A DNA stretch of 64,000 nucleotides from Methanobacteriota archaeon (lineage in GTDB: Archaea > Halobacteriota > Methanomicrobia > Methanomicrobiales > Methanoculleaceae). The position numbers and the translations under genes were made by a program. The notes under the pieces were generated by a model, which saw only the letters and a list, made by a program, of their open reading frames with translations, did not search any database and was not told where the DNA came from. The stretch is from contig JAENYE010000003.1 in the NCBI GenBank assembly GCA_016841955.1, positions 250,497 through 314,496 of the forward strand, read 5' to 3'. This document shows positions 3,040-13,928 of this stretch, piece by piece; within the stretch, counting starts at the first letter, position 1, and the number at the start of each line of letters is the position of its first letter.

Positions 3040-4152
3040 TCAGTACTCCGGAAGATCTTCCGGATCACGCAGACAACGGTGACCGGGATCATGACCTTCT
3101 GTCACTTCGTCGAACTGAACTTCACCTGTCACGGTATGCAATGGTGAAGACTCCTGTCTGAAGGATGGGCTCGATCTCGGGTTCTTCGACGCGCCCATAA
3201 TCTCTACCAGGGCATTGAGAATCAGACCGGATGAGATCAGGAGCATTCCCATGACGAGGGTGAGAGCGCTGACCATCGAGAGCGCAAATGGAAATTTTGC
3301 TGTAATGTAGTAATCCGAAAAGGCCATGAACCCCGCAAAAACTCCGGATGTGGTTAATAATAGTCCGGGCATGCCGAAGAACCAGATCGGTTTTTTACAA
3401 CTGGCGAATTTAACGATCGCATTGAGAACAGATAATCCATGAATCAGCGGATTTTGTGATGAAGAATTCTCAATATCGTAACGGACCCGGATCGGTTCCT
3501 CCGCAACTTTAAGATTGTGAGCGCCGATCTGAATGAGAATCTCGGAACCTGCCGACATATCGTTGCCGCCGAGTTGAATCGTTTGGATCGCTCGTTTCCC
3601 GTATGCCCGGAATCCACTCTGTGAATCAGTAATAGTCAGATCACTTGCATATTGTGTAGCAGTATCAAGGACTTTCATCCCGACCTTCCGATAGGCCGGG
3701 ATGTCTCCACTTGCGCCCTTGATGAACCGGGAGCCTATAACAACATCGTTCCCCTCGCGAAGTTTCCTCAGGAGGCTTTCGATGTCCCTGGGATCGTGCT
3801 GACCATCAGAATCCATGATGACAAGCTCGTCTGCCTCGATCTTCCGTGCCGTGTTGAAGATCGTCTGGAGAGCCCCGCCATAGCCCCGATTGACCTCATG
3901 CTGTACGACGAGGGCACCAAGTGCCCTGGCGATCGGTACCGTGTCGTCTTTAGATCCATCATCGACCACGAGGACGATATCGGCATACTGCCGGGCCCCC
4001 ATAACAGTCTTGGCAATATAGCCTTCTTCATTGTAGGCCGGCATGGCCACAACAGTGCGGATGGAAGAGAGTTTCGCCGGAGTACCGGCAGGGTCTTGTG
4101 GCTGAAAACGATTTCGCTCAACGGTCCAAGCGGGTGCAGGCGATGAACTCAT
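3040..4152 (-). CDS. GT2 glycosyltransferase, dolichol-phosphate sugar synthase type, with C-terminal membrane helices
   Basis: The 370-residue protein has the DPM1/GtrB-like GT2 domain: TVVAMPAYNEEGYIAKTV near residue 33, VVDDGSKDDT, and the metal motif IMDSDGQHDP. Two hydrophobic segments follow at about residues 260-325 (WFFGMPGLLLTTSGVFAGF and a second containing LTLVMGMLLISSGLIL). This layout is typical of enzymes that charge a polyprenyl phosphate with a hexose for protein N-glycosylation or surface polysaccharide. The ATG at 4152 is preceded by AAGGAGG at 8 bases, a strong ribosome site. The last 40 residues are polar and unconserved-looking. It is transcribed away from the beta-helix genes, toward the GT2 gene at 1594. 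Confidence 0.88.
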   Translation of the reverse strand: MSSSPAPAWTVERNRFQPQDPAGTPAKLSSIRTVVAMPAYNEEGYIAKTVMGARQYADIVLVVDDGSKDDTVPIARALGALVVQHEVNRGYGGALQTIFNTARKIEADELVIMDSDGQHDPRDIESLLRKLREGNDVVIGSRFIKGASGDIPAYRKVGMKVLDTATQYASDLTITDSQSGFRAYGKRAIQTIQLGGNDMSAGSEILIQIGAHNLKVAEEPIRVRYDIENSSSQNPLIHGLSVLNAIVKFASCKKPIWFFGMPGLLLTTSGVFAGFMAFSDYYITAKFPFALSMVSALTLVMGMLLISSGLILNALVEIMGASKNPRSSPSFRQESSPLHTVTGEVQFDEVTEGHDPGHRCLRDPEDLPEY

Positions 4153-5358: not shown

Positions 5359-7734
5359 ATGAAAAAAACCCAATTTCTGGTACTGACATTGTCCGTGATG
5401 CTTGCTATGGTCGCACCAGCACTGGCAGCCCAGGACCAGGAGACCTCCCAGGGTTCGTATGATGTCGTCGTATACATCGACGGTACGACGATCCTTGCGG
5501 AAAACGGTAACGGCCAGATTATCAGCGACGGAACAGCAGGAATCGATGACAGTAAAGTCATACAGGCCGCAGTGAAGGCTGTCAGCAACGGCACCGTGGT
5601 CATTCAGGCCGGAACCTATGCCCTGAACAGTCCCATCGAAGTCGGGGTATCCAATCCTACCTCAACCCCGACACCTACGCCGACTCCCTCCGGGAAGCCG
5701 GACCTTGTGGTGACTGATATCTCCTGGAAACCGCCAAACCCGGAGATCGGGAGTGCAGTGACGCTGAAAGCCACGATCAAGAACCAGGGTGACGCCCCCA
5801 CGCCTGCGGGCACAAAGCACGGTGTCCTCTTCATGTTCGATGACGGGGCCGCCGGGTCCGGTGTCTGGTCCGACACCTACACCGCGTCGATTGCTCCGGG
5901 TGCATGGGTTACGCTGACCGCGAACGGCGGCTCGGCCGGTGCAACCTGGACGGCCGTCGAGGGCACCCACACCGTGAAGGCCACCGTGGACGATGTCAAC
6001 CGGATCGCCGAAAGCGACGAGACGAACAACGTCCGCACCGAGAAGATCACAGTCTCGAAGGCCGCATCGACACCCACCCCGACTCAGACACCGACTCCCA
6101 CGCCAACTGAAGATCCTTCCGACGTGCAGGAGCCCTACAAGGCCCATGCGGTGCCCGGTCGGATCAACTTTGTTGACTTCGACTTCGGAGGCGAAGACGT
6201 TGCGTATCACGATACCGAGACAGGCAACCAGGGCGGCTATTCGTACCGCACCGACAACGCCGACGTGGATATCGGTGAGCGAAGCGGCGTCAACGTGCCG
6301 GTCGTCTCCCACACCTACGCCGAGGAATGGATCACATTCTCCGGAGTACAGGTAGCCGAATCGGGCACCTATGCTGCCACGTTCTACACCAGCACTACAG
6401 AAGACGGGAAGTCCTTCTCGGTTCTGGTAGACGGGACGCAGGTCGCTACGGTCAATGCCCCGAATACCGGCAGCTGGTATACGTTTGCTCCCACCACGGT
6501 GCAGATACCACTCACCGGCGGTGAGCACACGGTGCAGATAGCCATGGATACCGGGTGGGTCGACATGGCGTACGTCGAGTTTGCAACTGCAGCACCGACG
6601 CCCACGCCCACAGCGACGCCGACCGTGACGCCGACGCCCACTGCAACGGCGACACCAAGGCCGACCCAGACTCCGGTACCGACACCCAGCGATGATGTTT
6701 ACGGAGCGGATGCAAACCCGACCGGAAACCCCATCGGTGGAGGTAACGGCTATAACGACATCATCAGCCGGGACGACCCCCGTGTGAAGTTCATCGTCGA
6801 CACGCGGAGCGAGCTCCTCTCGGCCCTGCAGAGCGCACGCTCCGGGGATGTCGTTTACATTGAAGGCAACGCAAACATCGACATGAGCGGCTACTTCAAC
6901 GTCCGGGTACCGGCCGGGGTGACCGTTGCAAGCAATCGGGGTGAGGATGGAGCTGCAGGAGGACGGATCTTCCAGACCAGGCTCACCAATGACAATCGCC
7001 CCTCCGAGTACTGGCCGCCCTTATTCAAGCCCTCCGGGGCAGGGACGAGGTTCACCGGTCTGCGTATTGAAGGACCGGATAAGACCACGAGCGCTCCGGA
7101 TTTAAGATGCGGGATCCAGACCAACTACCAGATGGAAGTGGACAACTGTGAGATCTGGGGCTGGAGCGGTGCCGGGATTGCTGTCTACGGCACCGGAGGT
7201 GGGTCCGACATGAAGAGCGGCGGGTACTTCCACCACAACAACATCCACCACTGCCAGAGATCTGGTATCGGGTATGGTATCGTTGTGGCCAATGGCGCAG
7301 TATCCCTGATCGAAGCTAACTACTTCGACTACTGTCGGCATGCCATCGCCGGTGACGGACACGTCGAGAACGGGTATGAAGTGCGATACAACGTGTTCGG
7401 CTACAACTTCCCGGAGAGCAACAATGCCCACAGGATCGACATGCACGGAGTCAGCACGGCATCCGGGAATGTCGCCGGCGACAGGCTGATCATCCATCAC
7501 AACACGTTCGAAGCCATCAGCACGACCGATTACTGTATTGCCATCCGTGGGATCCCCAGAACAGGGGCATACATCGACCACAACTGGATCAAGTACACCG
7601 GCGATCCGATCGGACGAACCGGCGTTACCACCAGCCAGCTCAACACACGCATGTACATCGGTGAGAACAAGGGGCCGAATGGGCAGACCCTGTCAACCCT
7701 TAGCCAGCGTATCATTTCGACCAGTCTGTCGTAA
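5359..7734 (+). CDS. Secreted modular protein: CARDB + CBM6-like domain + pectate-lyase-like beta-helix
   Basis: The 791-residue precursor opens with a cleavable signal peptide (MKKTQFLVLTLSVMLAMVAP, then ALA-A). Residues 30-95 resemble the first coils of a pectate-lyase superfamily helix (DDSKVIQAAVKAVSNGTVVI), cut short. A Thr/Pro linker leads to a CARDB domain (about 111-232; KPDLVVTDISW, RIAESDETNNV). A second linker precedes a CBM6-like jelly roll (about 262-408; FVDFDFGGEDVAYHDTETGN, SFSVLVDGTQVATVNAP). A third linker leads to a right-handed beta-helix of pectate-lyase type (about 450-791; GDVVYIEGNANIDMSGY, HHNNIHHCQ, GDGHVENGYEVRYNVFGYN). The protein probably binds and perhaps cleaves an acidic polysaccharide outside the cell. 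Lyase activity is not proven. The start has AAGGAG at 7 bases. Its 3' end is duplicated in the next gene. Confidence 0.85.
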   Translation: MKKTQFLVLTLSVMLAMVAPALAAQDQETSQGSYDVVVYIDGTTILAENGNGQIISDGTAGIDDSKVIQAAVKAVSNGTVVIQAGTYALNSPIEVGVSNPTSTPTPTPTPSGKPDLVVTDISWKPPNPEIGSAVTLKATIKNQGDAPTPAGTKHGVLFMFDDGAAGSGVWSDTYTASIAPGAWVTLTANGGSAGATWTAVEGTHTVKATVDDVNRIAESDETNNVRTEKITVSKAASTPTPTQTPTPTPTEDPSDVQEPYKAHAVPGRINFVDFDFGGEDVAYHDTETGNQGGYSYRTDNADVDIGERSGVNVPVVSHTYAEEWITFSGVQVAESGTYAATFYTSTTEDGKSFSVLVDGTQVATVNAPNTGSWYTFAPTTVQIPLTGGEHTVQIAMDTGWVDMAYVEFATAAPTPTPTATPTVTPTPTATATPRPTQTPVPTPSDDVYGADANPTGNPIGGGNGYNDIISRDDPRVKFIVDTRSELLSALQSARSGDVVYIEGNANIDMSGYFNVRVPAGVTVASNRGEDGAAGGRIFQTRLTNDNRPSEYWPPLFKPSGAGTRFTGLRIEGPDKTTSAPDLRCGIQTNYQMEVDNCEIWGWSGAGIAVYGTGGGSDMKSGGYFHHNNIHHCQRSGIGYGIVVANGAVSLIEANYFDYCRHAIAGDGHVENGYEVRYNVFGYNFPESNNAHRIDMHGVSTASGNVAGDRLIIHHNTFEAISTTDYCIAIRGIPRTGAYIDHNWIKYTGDPIGRTGVTTSQLNTRMYIGENKGPNGQTLSTLSQRIISTSLS

Positions 7735-7936: not shown

Positions 7937-9709
7937 ATGCATCACAAAGAAGCTGTCCTCGTTCTGACCCTGTTCAGCATAGCACTGCTCACCCAGTTAG
8001 CGGTAGGAGATTATCATCACGCATCTGTGAAGAGCGGAGAACGCGGAACCCTGGAGTCGAGAAACTTTCCTTTTAATCTCTTCGATGCTCGAGAAAATAT
8101 ACTACTCACGGATATTGGGGAGCGGTTCAGCGACGCATCGCTTTTTTTTGGACCAGCAGAGACAGGCATCGTGAATTTCTTCTCTCCCCCACCCTTCAGG
8201 GCCAACCCAGCATTGATATCTCAAGCGCTCACCCAACAGCCGGCCTTTGGAGCTGAATCAAATCCCACCGGCAGTTCCATCGGCGGGGGCTATGCCTATC
8301 ATGATATAGTCACACCGACAGATTCAGCGGTGAACTATACTGTCACAACCGCAGATGAGTTGCTCACTGCCCTTCAGAGCGCAGGGCAAGGAGATGTGGT
8401 ATACATCGATGAAATGGCTAACATCAATCTTACAGACACCCCCGAAGTTGTCATCCCTGCCGGCGTGACTCTTGCCAGCAACAGGGGGGCCAGAAGTACG
8501 GTTGGATCGGCAGTGTATTCATTTAACATCGGTAAACAGGGAGATTATGTCCTCTGGGGTCTTGCATCTGCACCCCAGGAGAACGGCAAATCCTTCTGGG
8601 TTTCAGTGGATGGAGAGGAGAGTCGGCATTGGAACCTCGAAAGGGGTTCAAATTGGAGCTGGAATCGGGAAGGAAGCCACAACCTGTCTTCCGGACAACA
8701 CACCCTAGTCATCCGGTGGCGGGAGAATGAATCGAAACTCGACAGACTCTTCATTACAGCAGATTCAGGCCTTGTCCCTGACGCTGCCATAAAAGAACAC
8801 GCAGAAGGGGACCGCATCTGGTTGGAAGCGGAATCTGGTGTAACATCATCTCCAATGAGGAAGATTTCAGACCCTACGGCATCGGGCGGAATGTGTATCT
8901 CAGTCCTCGAAAGCTCCCGCATGGATGAAACTCCAATTTCCCCCGGCGGGAGAATTTTTCTGATGAGAGCGAACAACTCACGTTATCCGACCGCGCTCAT
9001 CGCAGGCGGGGAGAATATCAGGATCACGGGGATCCGTCTGGAAGGGCCGGACATAACAACCGAGAGTGTGAATCCACCGGCTCTTGGGATCTATGCCTCC
9101 TATCGGATGGAAGTGGACAACTGTGAGATCTGGGGCTGGAGCGGTGCAGGAATTGGGGTATATCGCACAGGAGGCGGGTCCGACATGAAGAGCGGCGGGT
9201 ACTTCCACCACAACAATATCCACCACTGCCAGATGAACGGTCTCGGATATGGCATCATTGTGGCCAATGGTTCGGTATCCCTGATCGAAGCGAACTACTT
9301 CGACTATTGTCGGCATGCCATCGCCGGTGACGGGCATGTCGAGAACGGGTATGAAGTGCGATACAACGTGTTCGGCTACAACTTCCCGGAGAGCAACAAT
9401 GCCCACAGGATCGACATGCACGGAGTCAGCACGGCATCCGGGAATGTCGCCGGCGACAGGCTGATCATCCATCACAACACGTTCGAAGCCATCAGCACGA
9501 CCGATTACTGTATTGCCATCCGTGGGATCCCCAGAACAGGGGCATACATCGACCACAACTGGATCAAGTACACCGGCGATCCGATCGGACGAACCGGCGT
9601 TACCACCAGCCAGCTCAACACACGCATGTACATCGGTGAGAACAAGGGGCCGAATGGGCAGACCCTGTCAACCCTTAGCCAGCGTATCATTTCGACCAGT
9701 CTGTCGTAA
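7937..9709 (+). CDS. Secreted pectate-lyase-like beta-helix protein with an inserted, apparently permuted CBM-like domain
   Basis: The 590-residue precursor has a signal peptide (VLVLTLFSIALLTQLAVG). Its core matches the lyase-like half of the upstream gene: GDVVYIDEMANINLTDTPEV, VTLASNRG at 177-184, then GGRIFLMRANNSRYP from 337 to the end. Between residues 185 and 336, where the paralogue has only a few residues, lies a jelly-roll-like domain. It begins with motifs that usually come late in CBM6/CBM35 domains (VYSFNIGKQGDYVLW, SFWVSVDGEE, HTLVIRWRENESKLDRLFIT). It ends with motifs that usually come first (IWLEAESGV, ISDPTASGGMCISV). It is probably exported and binds a polysaccharide. The start ATG at 7937 has only a weak ribosome site. 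Confidence 0.82.
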   Translation: MHHKEAVLVLTLFSIALLTQLAVGDYHHASVKSGERGTLESRNFPFNLFDARENILLTDIGERFSDASLFFGPAETGIVNFFSPPPFRANPALISQALTQQPAFGAESNPTGSSIGGGYAYHDIVTPTDSAVNYTVTTADELLTALQSAGQGDVVYIDEMANINLTDTPEVVIPAGVTLASNRGARSTVGSAVYSFNIGKQGDYVLWGLASAPQENGKSFWVSVDGEESRHWNLERGSNWSWNREGSHNLSSGQHTLVIRWRENESKLDRLFITADSGLVPDAAIKEHAEGDRIWLEAESGVTSSPMRKISDPTASGGMCISVLESSRMDETPISPGGRIFLMRANNSRYPTALIAGGENIRITGIRLEGPDITTESVNPPALGIYASYRMEVDNCEIWGWSGAGIGVYRTGGGSDMKSGGYFHHNNIHHCQMNGLGYGIIVANGSVSLIEANYFDYCRHAIAGDGHVENGYEVRYNVFGYNFPESNNAHRIDMHGVSTASGNVAGDRLIIHHNTFEAISTTDYCIAIRGIPRTGAYIDHNWIKYTGDPIGRTGVTTSQLNTRMYIGENKGPNGQTLSTLSQRIISTSLS

Positions 9710-9952: not shown

Positions 9953-11176
9953 ATGAATGTCATCGTCCTAGACGAACACCCTCCAGAAGACGGGCGAGTT
10001 GGTCGGCACATAAGATATCTACTGCAGAATACCGAGCACGTCTTTCGCCTGCATTTCAGCCTCTTCGATCCTACCCTGGAGTCAGGTCACTTCTCCCTCT
10101 ACGGCGAGAAAGGTTTCAGGATCTGCCCCCCATCCTCCCATATGCGTCCGTTGAACTTCTGTGTATTCAATACGAAATATCTCCTCCCCTTCTGCTTTTA
10201 TTCCAGGATAAAATGGACACTGAAAGAACTGGATGTGAATCTAACTGCCCCGGCGGTACTACACGTCCACGATCCCTGTCTCCTGAAGGTTGCAACTATG
10301 ATGAAGAGAAAACTTTTCCGGAGCGCAAGGATTGTGTACGATAGACACGAGTTCTACGAAGTATTCAATAAGAAAACTCAATTGCCCACTCTAACACTCC
10401 ACAGATTTTACGAACTTTTAGCAGAGGATGCGGTCGACGGGGTCGCTCATGCCAGTTTGGGAGGAAAATCCGATCCTAGATCGCTCTTTCCAAGGGCAAA
10501 ACACGCCCATATTCCAAATTTTCCTCTTGCTGATACATACAATGAGGCACATATTCGTGAGAAGGTCCTCTTGTCTGAGAATAACTCTACGATCAATCTT
10601 CTTTATATCGGCTCTCTCAACCCACATGACCGGGACGTCCGGCTCATGCTGAAGATCGCCTCAGATATACTGGCCCACATCCCAAAGACCACATTCTTCA
10701 TCGGCGGACCATCCTATGGTCACGATGAAGAGTTACAGCAGATGATGATACCATTGCAGGAAGAATACGGCGCACGGTTCCGCTTCCATCTTGGATACGT
10801 GACCAGAAGTATGACCCAGAAATTCACTGAGAACTGTCACATTGGTCTTCACTTTATTAATCCGGAGACCACGTACTGGATCGAGGGTTCCTCAAACAAG
10901 ATTTACGAGTATCTCCGTTGCGGTGCAATTCCAGTAGTGCGAGCATCCGTGGAGTCATCCGAGAGTCTTTCTTCATGCTCCCTCCTGTTTGACCGGCATA
11001 CTCCCAAAGAGAAGATCATTTCGGACATTCGACAACTAATCAGCGATCAGGACAGATGCAGGAGAATGATGAGAGAGGCACTCTCTCTTAGCACTCAATT
11101 CACATTTAACGCTGTAGGTCCAAATTACCTCAAACTGTACGATCAGATCTGGAACAGTCACCTGCCGCCTCAGTAA
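9953..11176 (+). CDS. Glycosyltransferase, family 4-like (GT-B fold)
   Basis: This 407-residue soluble protein has a GT-B layout. The N-terminal half contains LHVHDPCLLKVATMMKR and YDRHEFYEVF (acceptor domain). The C-terminal half has the donor-side strands INLLYIGSLN and TTFFIGGP, and the nucleotide-sugar motif IEGSSNKIYEYLRCGAIPVV, where the acidic residue of KIYEYL sits in the usual ExxxxxE position. The final segment (FNAVGPNYLKLYDQIW) is typical of GT4 C-termini. The N-terminus (MNVIVLDEHPPEDGRVGRHI) starts directly with the first strand. A TATA-like ACTATATATAGAG near 9920-9932 lies about 25-30 bases before the ATG and suggests a leaderless or short-leader transcript. Substrates are unknown. 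Confidence 0.82.
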   Translation: MNVIVLDEHPPEDGRVGRHIRYLLQNTEHVFRLHFSLFDPTLESGHFSLYGEKGFRICPPSSHMRPLNFCVFNTKYLLPFCFYSRIKWTLKELDVNLTAPAVLHVHDPCLLKVATMMKRKLFRSARIVYDRHEFYEVFNKKTQLPTLTLHRFYELLAEDAVDGVAHASLGGKSDPRSLFPRAKHAHIPNFPLADTYNEAHIREKVLLSENNSTINLLYIGSLNPHDRDVRLMLKIASDILAHIPKTTFFIGGPSYGHDEELQQMMIPLQEEYGARFRFHLGYVTRSMTQKFTENCHIGLHFINPETTYWIEGSSNKIYEYLRCGAIPVVRASVESSESLSSCSLLFDRHTPKEKIISDIRQLISDQDRCRRMMREALSLSTQFTFNAVGPNYLKLYDQIWNSHLPPQ

Positions 11177-12256: not shown

Positions 12257-13311
12257 AGAATTCCAGTTTGTTTCCCCTGCCGCACACCAAGTCCTCCCCA
12301 GTACCGCAGGATCCAGGTATCCCATCGGATCTCAAAATCAGGTACCTCTTCTCCGAGCGCCAGTTTTACTGCACCATAAATGATGTTTGCTCCGGAAAAC
12401 GTGGACAGCACCATGGTTCCCTGCACCCGGGGATTGGACTCGAGCAGTTTTGGCACGTTGTTCTGATCGCACTTGAACTGAAAGCCAAAGGCATATTTCA
12501 GCCCGATGTTCCTGGTGAGTGCCGTCGAATGATCGATGAGATCCCGGCGCTCCTCCGTCACTCCGGAGAAGGTAATTCCAGAAAGGATTCGTTCCCGCCT
12601 TCTTGGCACGGCGACGAACGTATCCGGACCATTGAGGAGATCCACGGTGTACTCCGGGCCGGGAAGATACTCCATGACCAGCAGATCCGGAAAAGAATCT
12701 CCGATGACACCCATAAGGGCGCTCATCGGCATCAGGACGGTGGTTGGTTTCTCAGCATAGAACTGCTCCCGCAGATTGACCCTTTCATCAATGATTCTGA
12801 AACCTCTCATTCCATTTGAGACAGGGGGCTTTACGACCACCCTCTCCTCCGGCCATCCCAACCTCTCCGCAGACTTCTGCAGGTCCTCCGCAGTGTTGAC
12901 GCAGAGAGATTCCGGGCAGGGAATGCCAATCGCTGCCGCCTGGCGCAGGAGCCGCTGCTTGTTGTTTGCCGTCTCGATTGGCCTGCTTCCGGAGACGGCG
13001 ACTGCCGTCCCGATCCCGGCGAACTCCCCCGCATGCTCGGCCAGCACCGGTAACTCAGCGGTGTTCTGCGGGATCACGACGTCAACGTGCTCTATAGCGC
13101 AGATTTTTTGCAGATCCGTGAGATAACTCTCCTCCGTCGGCCGGGCAATCCGGTAAAACTTGTCGCACAGACATCTGCCTACTGCGTTCCGGTTTATGTC
13201 TGTACCAATGGTTCTGATCTGCCGTTGATCAAAGTTATTCTTCAGGGAGTGGAGGGTCCCACCGATCCCCGGGGCTCCCGATCCAGTGACCAGTACGGTC
13301 AGAGCACCCAT
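12253..13311 (-). CDS. ATP-grasp protein, carbamoyl-phosphate-synthase-like ligase
   Basis: This 352-residue protein starts with a Rossmann-like pre-ATP-grasp domain (LTVLVTGSGAPGIGGTLHSL). The ATP-grasp fold follows: NNKQRLLRQAAAIGIPCPES, the lysine-containing VVVKPPVSNGMRG, the ADP-binding LLVMEYLPGPEYTVDLL, and the Mg-binding KLLESNPRVQGT. This family activates a carboxylate as acyl phosphate and couples it to an amine or thiol. The order is like CPSase/PylC-type ligases. The start has GAGGTGG at 5 bases, and the gene overlaps the PIG-L gene by 13 bases and the PHP gene by 4, so translation of all three is probably coupled. With a deacetylase upstream, a likely but unproven job is to add an acyl or amino-acid group to a freed amino sugar. 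Confidence 0.87.
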   Translation of the reverse strand: MGALTVLVTGSGAPGIGGTLHSLKNNFDQRQIRTIGTDINRNAVGRCLCDKFYRIARPTEESYLTDLQKICAIEHVDVVIPQNTAELPVLAEHAGEFAGIGTAVAVSGSRPIETANNKQRLLRQAAAIGIPCPESLCVNTAEDLQKSAERLGWPEERVVVKPPVSNGMRGFRIIDERVNLREQFYAEKPTTVLMPMSALMGVIGDSFPDLLVMEYLPGPEYTVDLLNGPDTFVAVPRRRERILSGITFSGVTEERRDLIDHSTALTRNIGLKYAFGFQFKCDQNNVPKLLESNPRVQGTMVLSTFSGANIIYGAVKLALGEEVPDFEIRWDTWILRYWGGLGVRQGKQTGIL

Positions 13312-13928
13312 CGAACCACCTCGAATGCCTCCGCATACTCAGCATTACACTGGACGCCCCGCGTCTTGGCAAGGCCATAGATATACTCCTCGGAAAAATA
13401 ATTTTTCTTGTTCATGAGCTGGGATTTATAGTGCTGCAACACTTCGCATTTTTTTACGAGGTGTGATCTCTGCAGTTTTACGAACAGTTGCGTGTCAAAC
13501 GTCACGTGATTCCAGGGGAGTTCGTACGAGATGATGCTTGCTGCAGATTTAAAGGCCCGAATCATCTCGTGTGCGACCACCTGATGGTCCTGATGATAAT
13601 CGTTTTTGGAGGGGCCTATGACAAGATCGGGTCGAAACTGATCCTTGATACGTATTAACTCTTCCAGGATCTCCTGCCTGTGCCGATCCAGGTTTCTCAC
13701 CTGATAATTGAAGACTCTCGATTGCCCGTTTTCCAGCTGGTAACTGGCTAGCACGTCCCTAAACTCGTTCAACAGGCTATCCTTGGGCAAGGGAGCTGGC
13801 AGGGACTCCTCAGCCGTTGAGAATACCACCCAGAAAACCTCATGCCCTTCCTGCAGAAACTTTGTCACCCCTCCCCCGCACCCCAGCTCGACATCATCGG
13901 TGTGAGGTGACAACAGCAGTATCTTCAT
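13299..13928 (-). CDS. PIG-L/LmbE family de-N-acetylase
   Basis: The 209-residue protein opens with MKILLLSPHTDDVELGCGGG, the zinc-binding PHPDDxxxGxGG motif with Thr for the second Pro. The third ligand region is YHQDHQVVAHEMIRAF. PIG-L enzymes remove acetyl groups from N-acetylglucosamine-type sugars on lipids or small conjugates. Family size and order are normal. The ATG at 13928 follows GGGAGGCAC at a good distance. It is the first gene of the minus-strand triad. Sitting in a glycan locus, its substrate is probably a GlcNAc-containing lipid or nucleotide sugar; this is inference. Confidence 0.88.
   Translation of the reverse strand: MKILLLSPHTDDVELGCGGGVTKFLQEGHEVFWVVFSTAEESLPAPLPKDSLLNEFRDVLASYQLENGQSRVFNYQVRNLDRHRQEILEELIRIKDQFRPDLVIGPSKNDYHQDHQVVAHEMIRAFKSAASIISYELPWNHVTFDTQLFVKLQRSHLVKKCEVLQHYKSQLMNKKNYFSEEYIYGLAKTRGVQCNAEYAEAFEVVRWVL

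Follow-up and report, generated by a model that had tools for sequence, protein, structure and literature searches.

A secreted right-handed beta-helix protein of 590 amino acids, encoded in the 2.43-Mb genome of a methanogen, very probably carries within one of its turns a single CBM35/CBM6-clan sandwich whose sequence is circularly permuted, the two parts most likely closing round calcium and the sugar-binding face lying beside the groove of the helix. The insert appears to be a loop insertion consisting of a permuted domain of CBM35/CBM6 type, because its two parts tile one canonical domain, because its score rises upon rotation, and because invariant calcium ligands are divided between the parts. 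CBMs with circular permutations and CBM-type domains inserted in other proteins have each been described; here the two occur together in a natural and long-kept form. The features concerned are given below in coordinates of the window, that is, of the whole 64,000-nucleotide stretch of DNA that was analysed.

1483-2598, 3040-4152, 9953-11176 and 13299-13928: glycosyltransferases and PIG-L deacetylase flanking the beta-helix pair
5359-7734, + strand: tandem paralogue with the same beta-helix, insert-free (open reading frame list, profile searches)
6943-6957: EDGAA, five residues at the insertion site of the paralogue (gap of 5 between helix blocks; sequence)
7937-9709, + strand: 590-residue secreted right-handed beta-helix protein carrying the insert (open reading frame list, open frame; homologues match Pfam Beta_helix)
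8246-8488, + strand: N-terminal block of the beta-helix, residues 104-184, ending in VTLASNRG (hmmsearch blocks, alignments)
8489-8944, + strand: insert, residues 185-336, putative circularly permuted CBM35/CBM6-type domain (alignment, helix-block profiles, rotation, tiling, tail shuffles)
8498-8779, + strand: part B, residues 188-281, the C-terminal two thirds of the canonical domain, canonical model positions 43-136 (89.6 bits)
8741-8743, + strand: codon of D269, predicted structural-calcium ligand from part B (invariance; motif equivalent of Asp137 in BT0996-C)
8780-8815, + strand: linker, residues 282-293, between the former C and N termini (least constrained segment; length varies)
8816-8944, + strand: part A, residues 294-336, the N-terminal third of the canonical domain, model positions 2 to about 42 (profile match, rotation)
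8825-8833, + strand: codons of E297-A298-E299, predicted structural-calcium ligands from part A (invariance; motif equivalent of Glu21/Glu23 in BT0996-C)
8945-9706, + strand: C-terminal block of the beta-helix, residues 337-590, resuming at GGRIFLM (helix-block profiles, alignments)
9353-9709, + strand: last 357 bases, with the same DNA sequence as the end of the tandem paralogue at 7734 (100% identity; DNA comparison)

The host protein begins with a hydrophobic, signal-peptide-like stretch, and the insert of about 150 amino acids lies between the VTLASNRG and GGRIFLM motifs of its helix. The preliminary description had placed the insert at residues 185-336, which stands, although its first nucleotide is 8489 and not 8486 as had been given. 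The same description had reported only a few residues at the corresponding site of the paralogue, where EDGAA is indeed found, and had noticed that motifs from the end of such a domain come before those from its beginning. This order was confirmed, as SFWVSVDG, W-x-W, HTLVIRWRE and KLDRLFIT precede IWLEAESG and DPTASGG. The paralogue also has a CARDB domain and a canonical-order CBM6-type domain, both N-terminal to its helix.

The yardstick for domain order was a profile of 137 positions made from six canonical-order domains of other proteins, taken from two genomes of the same family. In native order, part B aligns to positions 43-136 of this model and part A to positions 2 to about 42 in each of the 15 orthologous sequences. 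Both parts are detected in all of these sequences (56-92 bits for part B and 6-30 bits for part A, with part A E-values of 5e-4 to 2e-11 in single-sequence searches of the 15 orthologues), and together they tile exactly one domain, with no overlap and no gap, in 15 of 15. The permuted order is likewise universal among them, whereas domains of the clan start at the ExE motif and end at xD. When the insert was rotated at every fourth offset and rescored, the scores followed a smooth curve that peaked at offsets 100-108, the predicted cut. The rotated insert reached 117.2 bits, compared with 89.6 bits in native order, in one continuous match to positions 2-136 of the model, which amounts to homology over the whole domain to canonical-order members of the CBM35/CBM6 clan. 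Shuffles of the whole insert scored at most 7.2 bits on the canonical profile, and none of 500 tail-only shuffles equalled the rotated score of the real sequence in any of the 15 cases. The realignment proposed in the preliminary description, in which the tail of the insert is moved to the front, thus favours its reading of a circular permutation, as do the exact tiling, the split calcium ligands and the conservation described below.

The accompanying label, CBM6/CBM35, holds at the level of the clan but not at that of the Pfam families. The insert falls short of every CBM family in Pfam, the CBM35/CBM6 entries (PF16990, PF18099, PF03422) included, in native as well as in rotated order, and its best Pfam match is GH115_C, at 17-18 bits against a cut-off of 24.1. 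Canonical-order relatives in L034 pass the Pfam threshold, with 42.8 bits for CBM_35. A sequence search of the PDB with the rotated single sequence returned no match, and profile searches of the PDB returned weak partial matches only. The permuted domain marks a blind spot of annotation, lying under every Pfam cut-off and yet being a plain relative of known domains once rotated. No CBM60 profile was found among the matches of the insert at E-values up to 10, and a CBM60 identity was ruled out on this ground.

When 232 genomes of the order were searched, 14 further ones, from Methanoculleus and its relatives, proved to have full-length insert-bearing orthologues, all with this insert and its permuted order. 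In all, 15 genomes carry the permuted insert as one open frame, among them the isolates M. sediminis S3Fa and Methanoculleus sp. Afa-1, which rules out a frameshift or an assembly artefact. The insert-bearing named records in a scan of GTDB species genomes were M. sediminis, Methanoculleus sp. Afa-1 and several MAGs, and the same scan found insert-free beta-helix homologues in Planctomycetota, Armatimonadota, Bacillota, Chloroflexota, Bacteroidota, Myxococcota, haloarchaea and others. An initial scan of genome contigs with the insert alone gave no match, and no relatives were found in phages and viral contigs. Separate profiles for the two helix blocks were used to measure the residues between them in each homologue. 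This gap is 148-154 residues in every insert-bearing orthologue, compared with 5-25 in the paralogue and in some 65 homologues from bacteria and haloarchaea; no insert was found in the bacterial homologues, where rows marked by split helix matches have gaps of 9-23. A canonical-order domain at the insertion site, which the preliminary description had named as evidence against its reading, was found in none of the homologues with both helix blocks.

The copy in M. chikugoensis (L053:7095-8570, the same as L037:8904-10379) constitutes a natural deletion experiment. It has kept part B and lost part A with the frame open, and the gap between its helix blocks is 110 residues, part A being absent. 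Part B of this copy shows no obvious decay, with a pN/pS of 0.48 against the nearest relative. Part B may thus persist alone, which is a mild argument against its strict dependence on part A.

Whether the two parts form one domain can be approached through the calcium site of the clan. In the solved relative BT0996-C, a structural calcium is held by Glu21, Glu23 and Asp137, near strands 1 and 11 (PMC9843283). By motif, part A supplies their equivalents E297 and E299, and part B supplies D269. The insert thus has the residues of the calcium site of the clan, to which strand 1 gives two Glu and the last strand an Asp, and they are invariant in alignments of both permuted and canonical domains. 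By this correspondence, E297/E299 and D269 are predicted to bind calcium together. Parts B and A are both under purifying selection, with mean pN/pS values of 0.48 and 0.53, respectively, compared with 0.35-0.38 for the helix and 0.80 for the linker, which is the least constrained segment and varies in length among orthologues. An AlphaFold model of residues 97-590 (pTM 0.81) has a confident helix, with pLDDT >90 over most of it, and a fair part B, but places part A at a pLDDT of 40-60; a model of the insert alone has a pTM of 0.60, with part A again weak. The pLDDT of part A is about 35-60 across both models, probably owing to its coverage by just 11 sequences. With part A modelled at this confidence, its packing on part B is deduced from the sequences, which argue strongly for a single closed jelly roll. 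Part B takes a CBM fold in both models. Foldseek aligned each of them with structures of CBM35 and CBM6 over 88-106 of about 130 columns, and such partial coverage is expected of a sequential aligner given a permuted domain.

In the permuted order, the stretch that begins with canonical strand 4 and runs through the final strand comes first, followed by a linker of about 12 residues and then by strands 1-3, which bear the predicted calcium-binding ExE. The new termini fall in the loop that connects canonical strands 3 and 4, and through them the domain sits in a turn of the helix with the coil unbroken. Parts A and B most likely form one fold around the usual structural calcium, with a sugar-binding face next to the groove of the helix, and the secreted protein may hold or scan a surface or extracellular glycan in this way.

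The preliminary description had offered one alternative, namely two broken domains back to back. These would be CBM remnants, the end of one array domain and the start of the next, which might fold separately or not fold. A tandem array is a plausible source, given that a VP tail motif is common to array linkers and the linker of the insert, and the poor placement of part A by AlphaFold and the M. chikugoensis copy without part A also speak for remnants. However, the pieces tile one domain exactly in 15 of 15 sequences, the invariant calcium ligands are divided between them, and part A, at about 45 residues and three strands, has no core of its own and is nevertheless constrained; with both parts under constraint, this alternative is disfavoured and appears improbable. 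A permuted sandwich could also be completed between molecules, part A of one closing part B of another to give an oligomer. The sequences would look alike under such a domain swap and under intramolecular closure, but the linker of about 12 residues joins strands that lie side by side in solved relatives (b1 and b11; PMC9843283), which should make closure within a single chain easy, and a swap is considered very improbable.

A third alternative competes only with the functional part of the favoured explanation and leaves the permutation untouched. The permuted CBM-type fold could be a structural or protein-contact spacer without sugar binding, like laminin LF, an inserted CBM35-type domain with no known ligand and without conservation of the sugar site (PMC5338690). 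The helix family of the host has no assigned enzyme activity. All 29 of 29 homologues match Pfam Beta_helix, the PDB matches of the helix model by Foldseek include GH87 and the alginate lyase 6kfn, and the sequence match to the PL6 enzyme BcAlyPL6 (7dmk) is partial only (E 1e-7); from the Pfam Beta_helix and partial PL6 matches, no characterised enzyme family could be assigned to the helix. Against a spacer stand W240 and W242 of the W-x-W stretch, which are invariant in the alignment of all 15 orthologues. Trp dominates binding region A in CBM35 and CBM6 (PMC9843283), and the two residues are candidates for the equivalent position. A spacer is a real but less favoured possibility, and the permuted insert is a putative sugar binder. 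The neighbourhood is rich in glycan genes, with two family-2 glycosyltransferases, a group-1 glycosyltransferase and the PIG-L deacetylase, and the flanking genes suggest a surface-glycan locus. A secreted beta-helix joined to a sugar-binding-type domain would suit a protein that binds or trims glycan on the cell surface or outside the cell.

The two halves of the helix have different histories. In a tree of the N-terminal block, restricted to archaeal rows, the insert-bearing proteins form one clade (support 94/93), which shows a single origin of the insert-bearing N-terminal half. The tree of the C-terminal block breaks this clade up, and insert-bearing proteins group there with insert-free copies from their own or sister genomes. 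This mixing, together with the 357 identical bases at the 3' end of the gene, indicates gene conversion between the paralogues. The tandem paralogues evolve in concert by such conversion, which was recent in the window, and the trees point to repeated conversion of the C-terminal half in several lineages (G000/G048, G062, G045). Conversion has repeatedly overwritten the C-terminal half without erasing the insert, which stays in one copy only.

A possible donor type is found in two proteins of about 980 amino acids (L033:3378-6323 and L034:4269-7220), in which a different beta-helix is followed by three tandem CBM35-type domains in canonical order. The array domains in these two genomes of the family match Pfam CBM_35, Golvesin_C and GH115_C, and one of the two genomes with the canonical three-domain array, G081, also has the permuted insert. 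The simplest origin would be a piece of a tandem CBM array, running from mid-domain to mid-domain, that was pasted into a turn of the helix. The VP tail, conserved in the canonical domains, persists ahead of the linker of the insert.

CBM6 and CBM35 belong to the galactose-binding-like fold b.18. Canonical CBM35 and CBM6 domains (PDB 2w47 and 2cdp; the L033 and L034 arrays) are relatives of the insert over the whole domain after rotation, share its ExE and D motif and are matched by Foldseek, but they are joined in line, whereas the insert is permuted and placed within a host domain. CBM60 is reportedly a circular permutation of CBM36. CBM60 is an in-line module and is not known to occur as a loop insertion. 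The CBM36/CBM60 pair resembles the insert in natural circular permutation, in calcium dependence and in the kind of fold, and CBM60 differs in that none of its profiles matches the insert at E-values up to 10. Natural circular permutation in a CBM was described by Montanier et al., 2010 (JBC 285:31742), as cited in PMC4725902, and b.18 is among the folds known to contain permutations (PMC12667903). In laminin LF, a CBM35-type sandwich is inserted between LE domains and the host packs as if uninterrupted (PMC5338690). Both LF and the present insert are inserted CBM35-type domains, but the LF paper does not mention permutation, and its host and organisms are others (PMC5338690). A recent survey handles insertion and permutation as separate phenomena (PMC13114784), and no earlier description of a CBM that is both permuted and inserted into a host domain was found in the literature searched, the coverage of which was incomplete.

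A second case emerged from searches of the native-order profile against samples of the phylum of the window and of two bacterial phyla (via L058, Planctomycetota, and L067, Armatimonadota). Nearly all matches in the phylum samples are canonical, as are many of the bacterial part-B matches, which include 55 full-length canonical domains. The matches in L232-L234, which had looked permuted, are ordinary tandem arrangements. In heparinase II/III-like proteins of Armatimonadota (L235-L241; Pfam Hepar_II_III_C), a domain of the same family follows a WLLHS strand, and its first two strands (LEAEAGTLAAPMRVV) are moved to its end. This insert lies at about residues 485-638 of L209-type proteins (e.g., L209:1-2190, + strand), and in the insert-free homologue L242 the heparinase-like host continues on both sides. 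Rotation was significant in four of the seven sequences, the others being degenerate. As in Methanoculleus, the insert belongs to the same clan, is permuted, and is followed by resumption of the host; unlike in Methanoculleus, the cut falls between canonical strands 2 and 3. Because cut point and host both differ, the Armatimonadota permutation is independent. It is conceivable, at somewhat under even odds, that CBM35/CBM6-clan domains repeatedly enter carbohydrate-active hosts by permutation with differing cuts, through pasting of array pieces, so that the two cases represent one route. If true, this would be a general route of permuted CBM insertion that profile annotation misses. The canonical relatives in sister genomes, the intermediate without part A, the insert-free paralogue that exchanges sequence and the second, bacterial case form a comparison set, and domain-into-domain threading thereby becomes testable with natural constructs.

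The helix proteins of L057-L119 belong to a widespread beta-helix family, recognisable by the motifs GVTLASNRG, LIEANxFDYxRHxIAG and IHHNTF and by invariant His, Glu and Asn residues.
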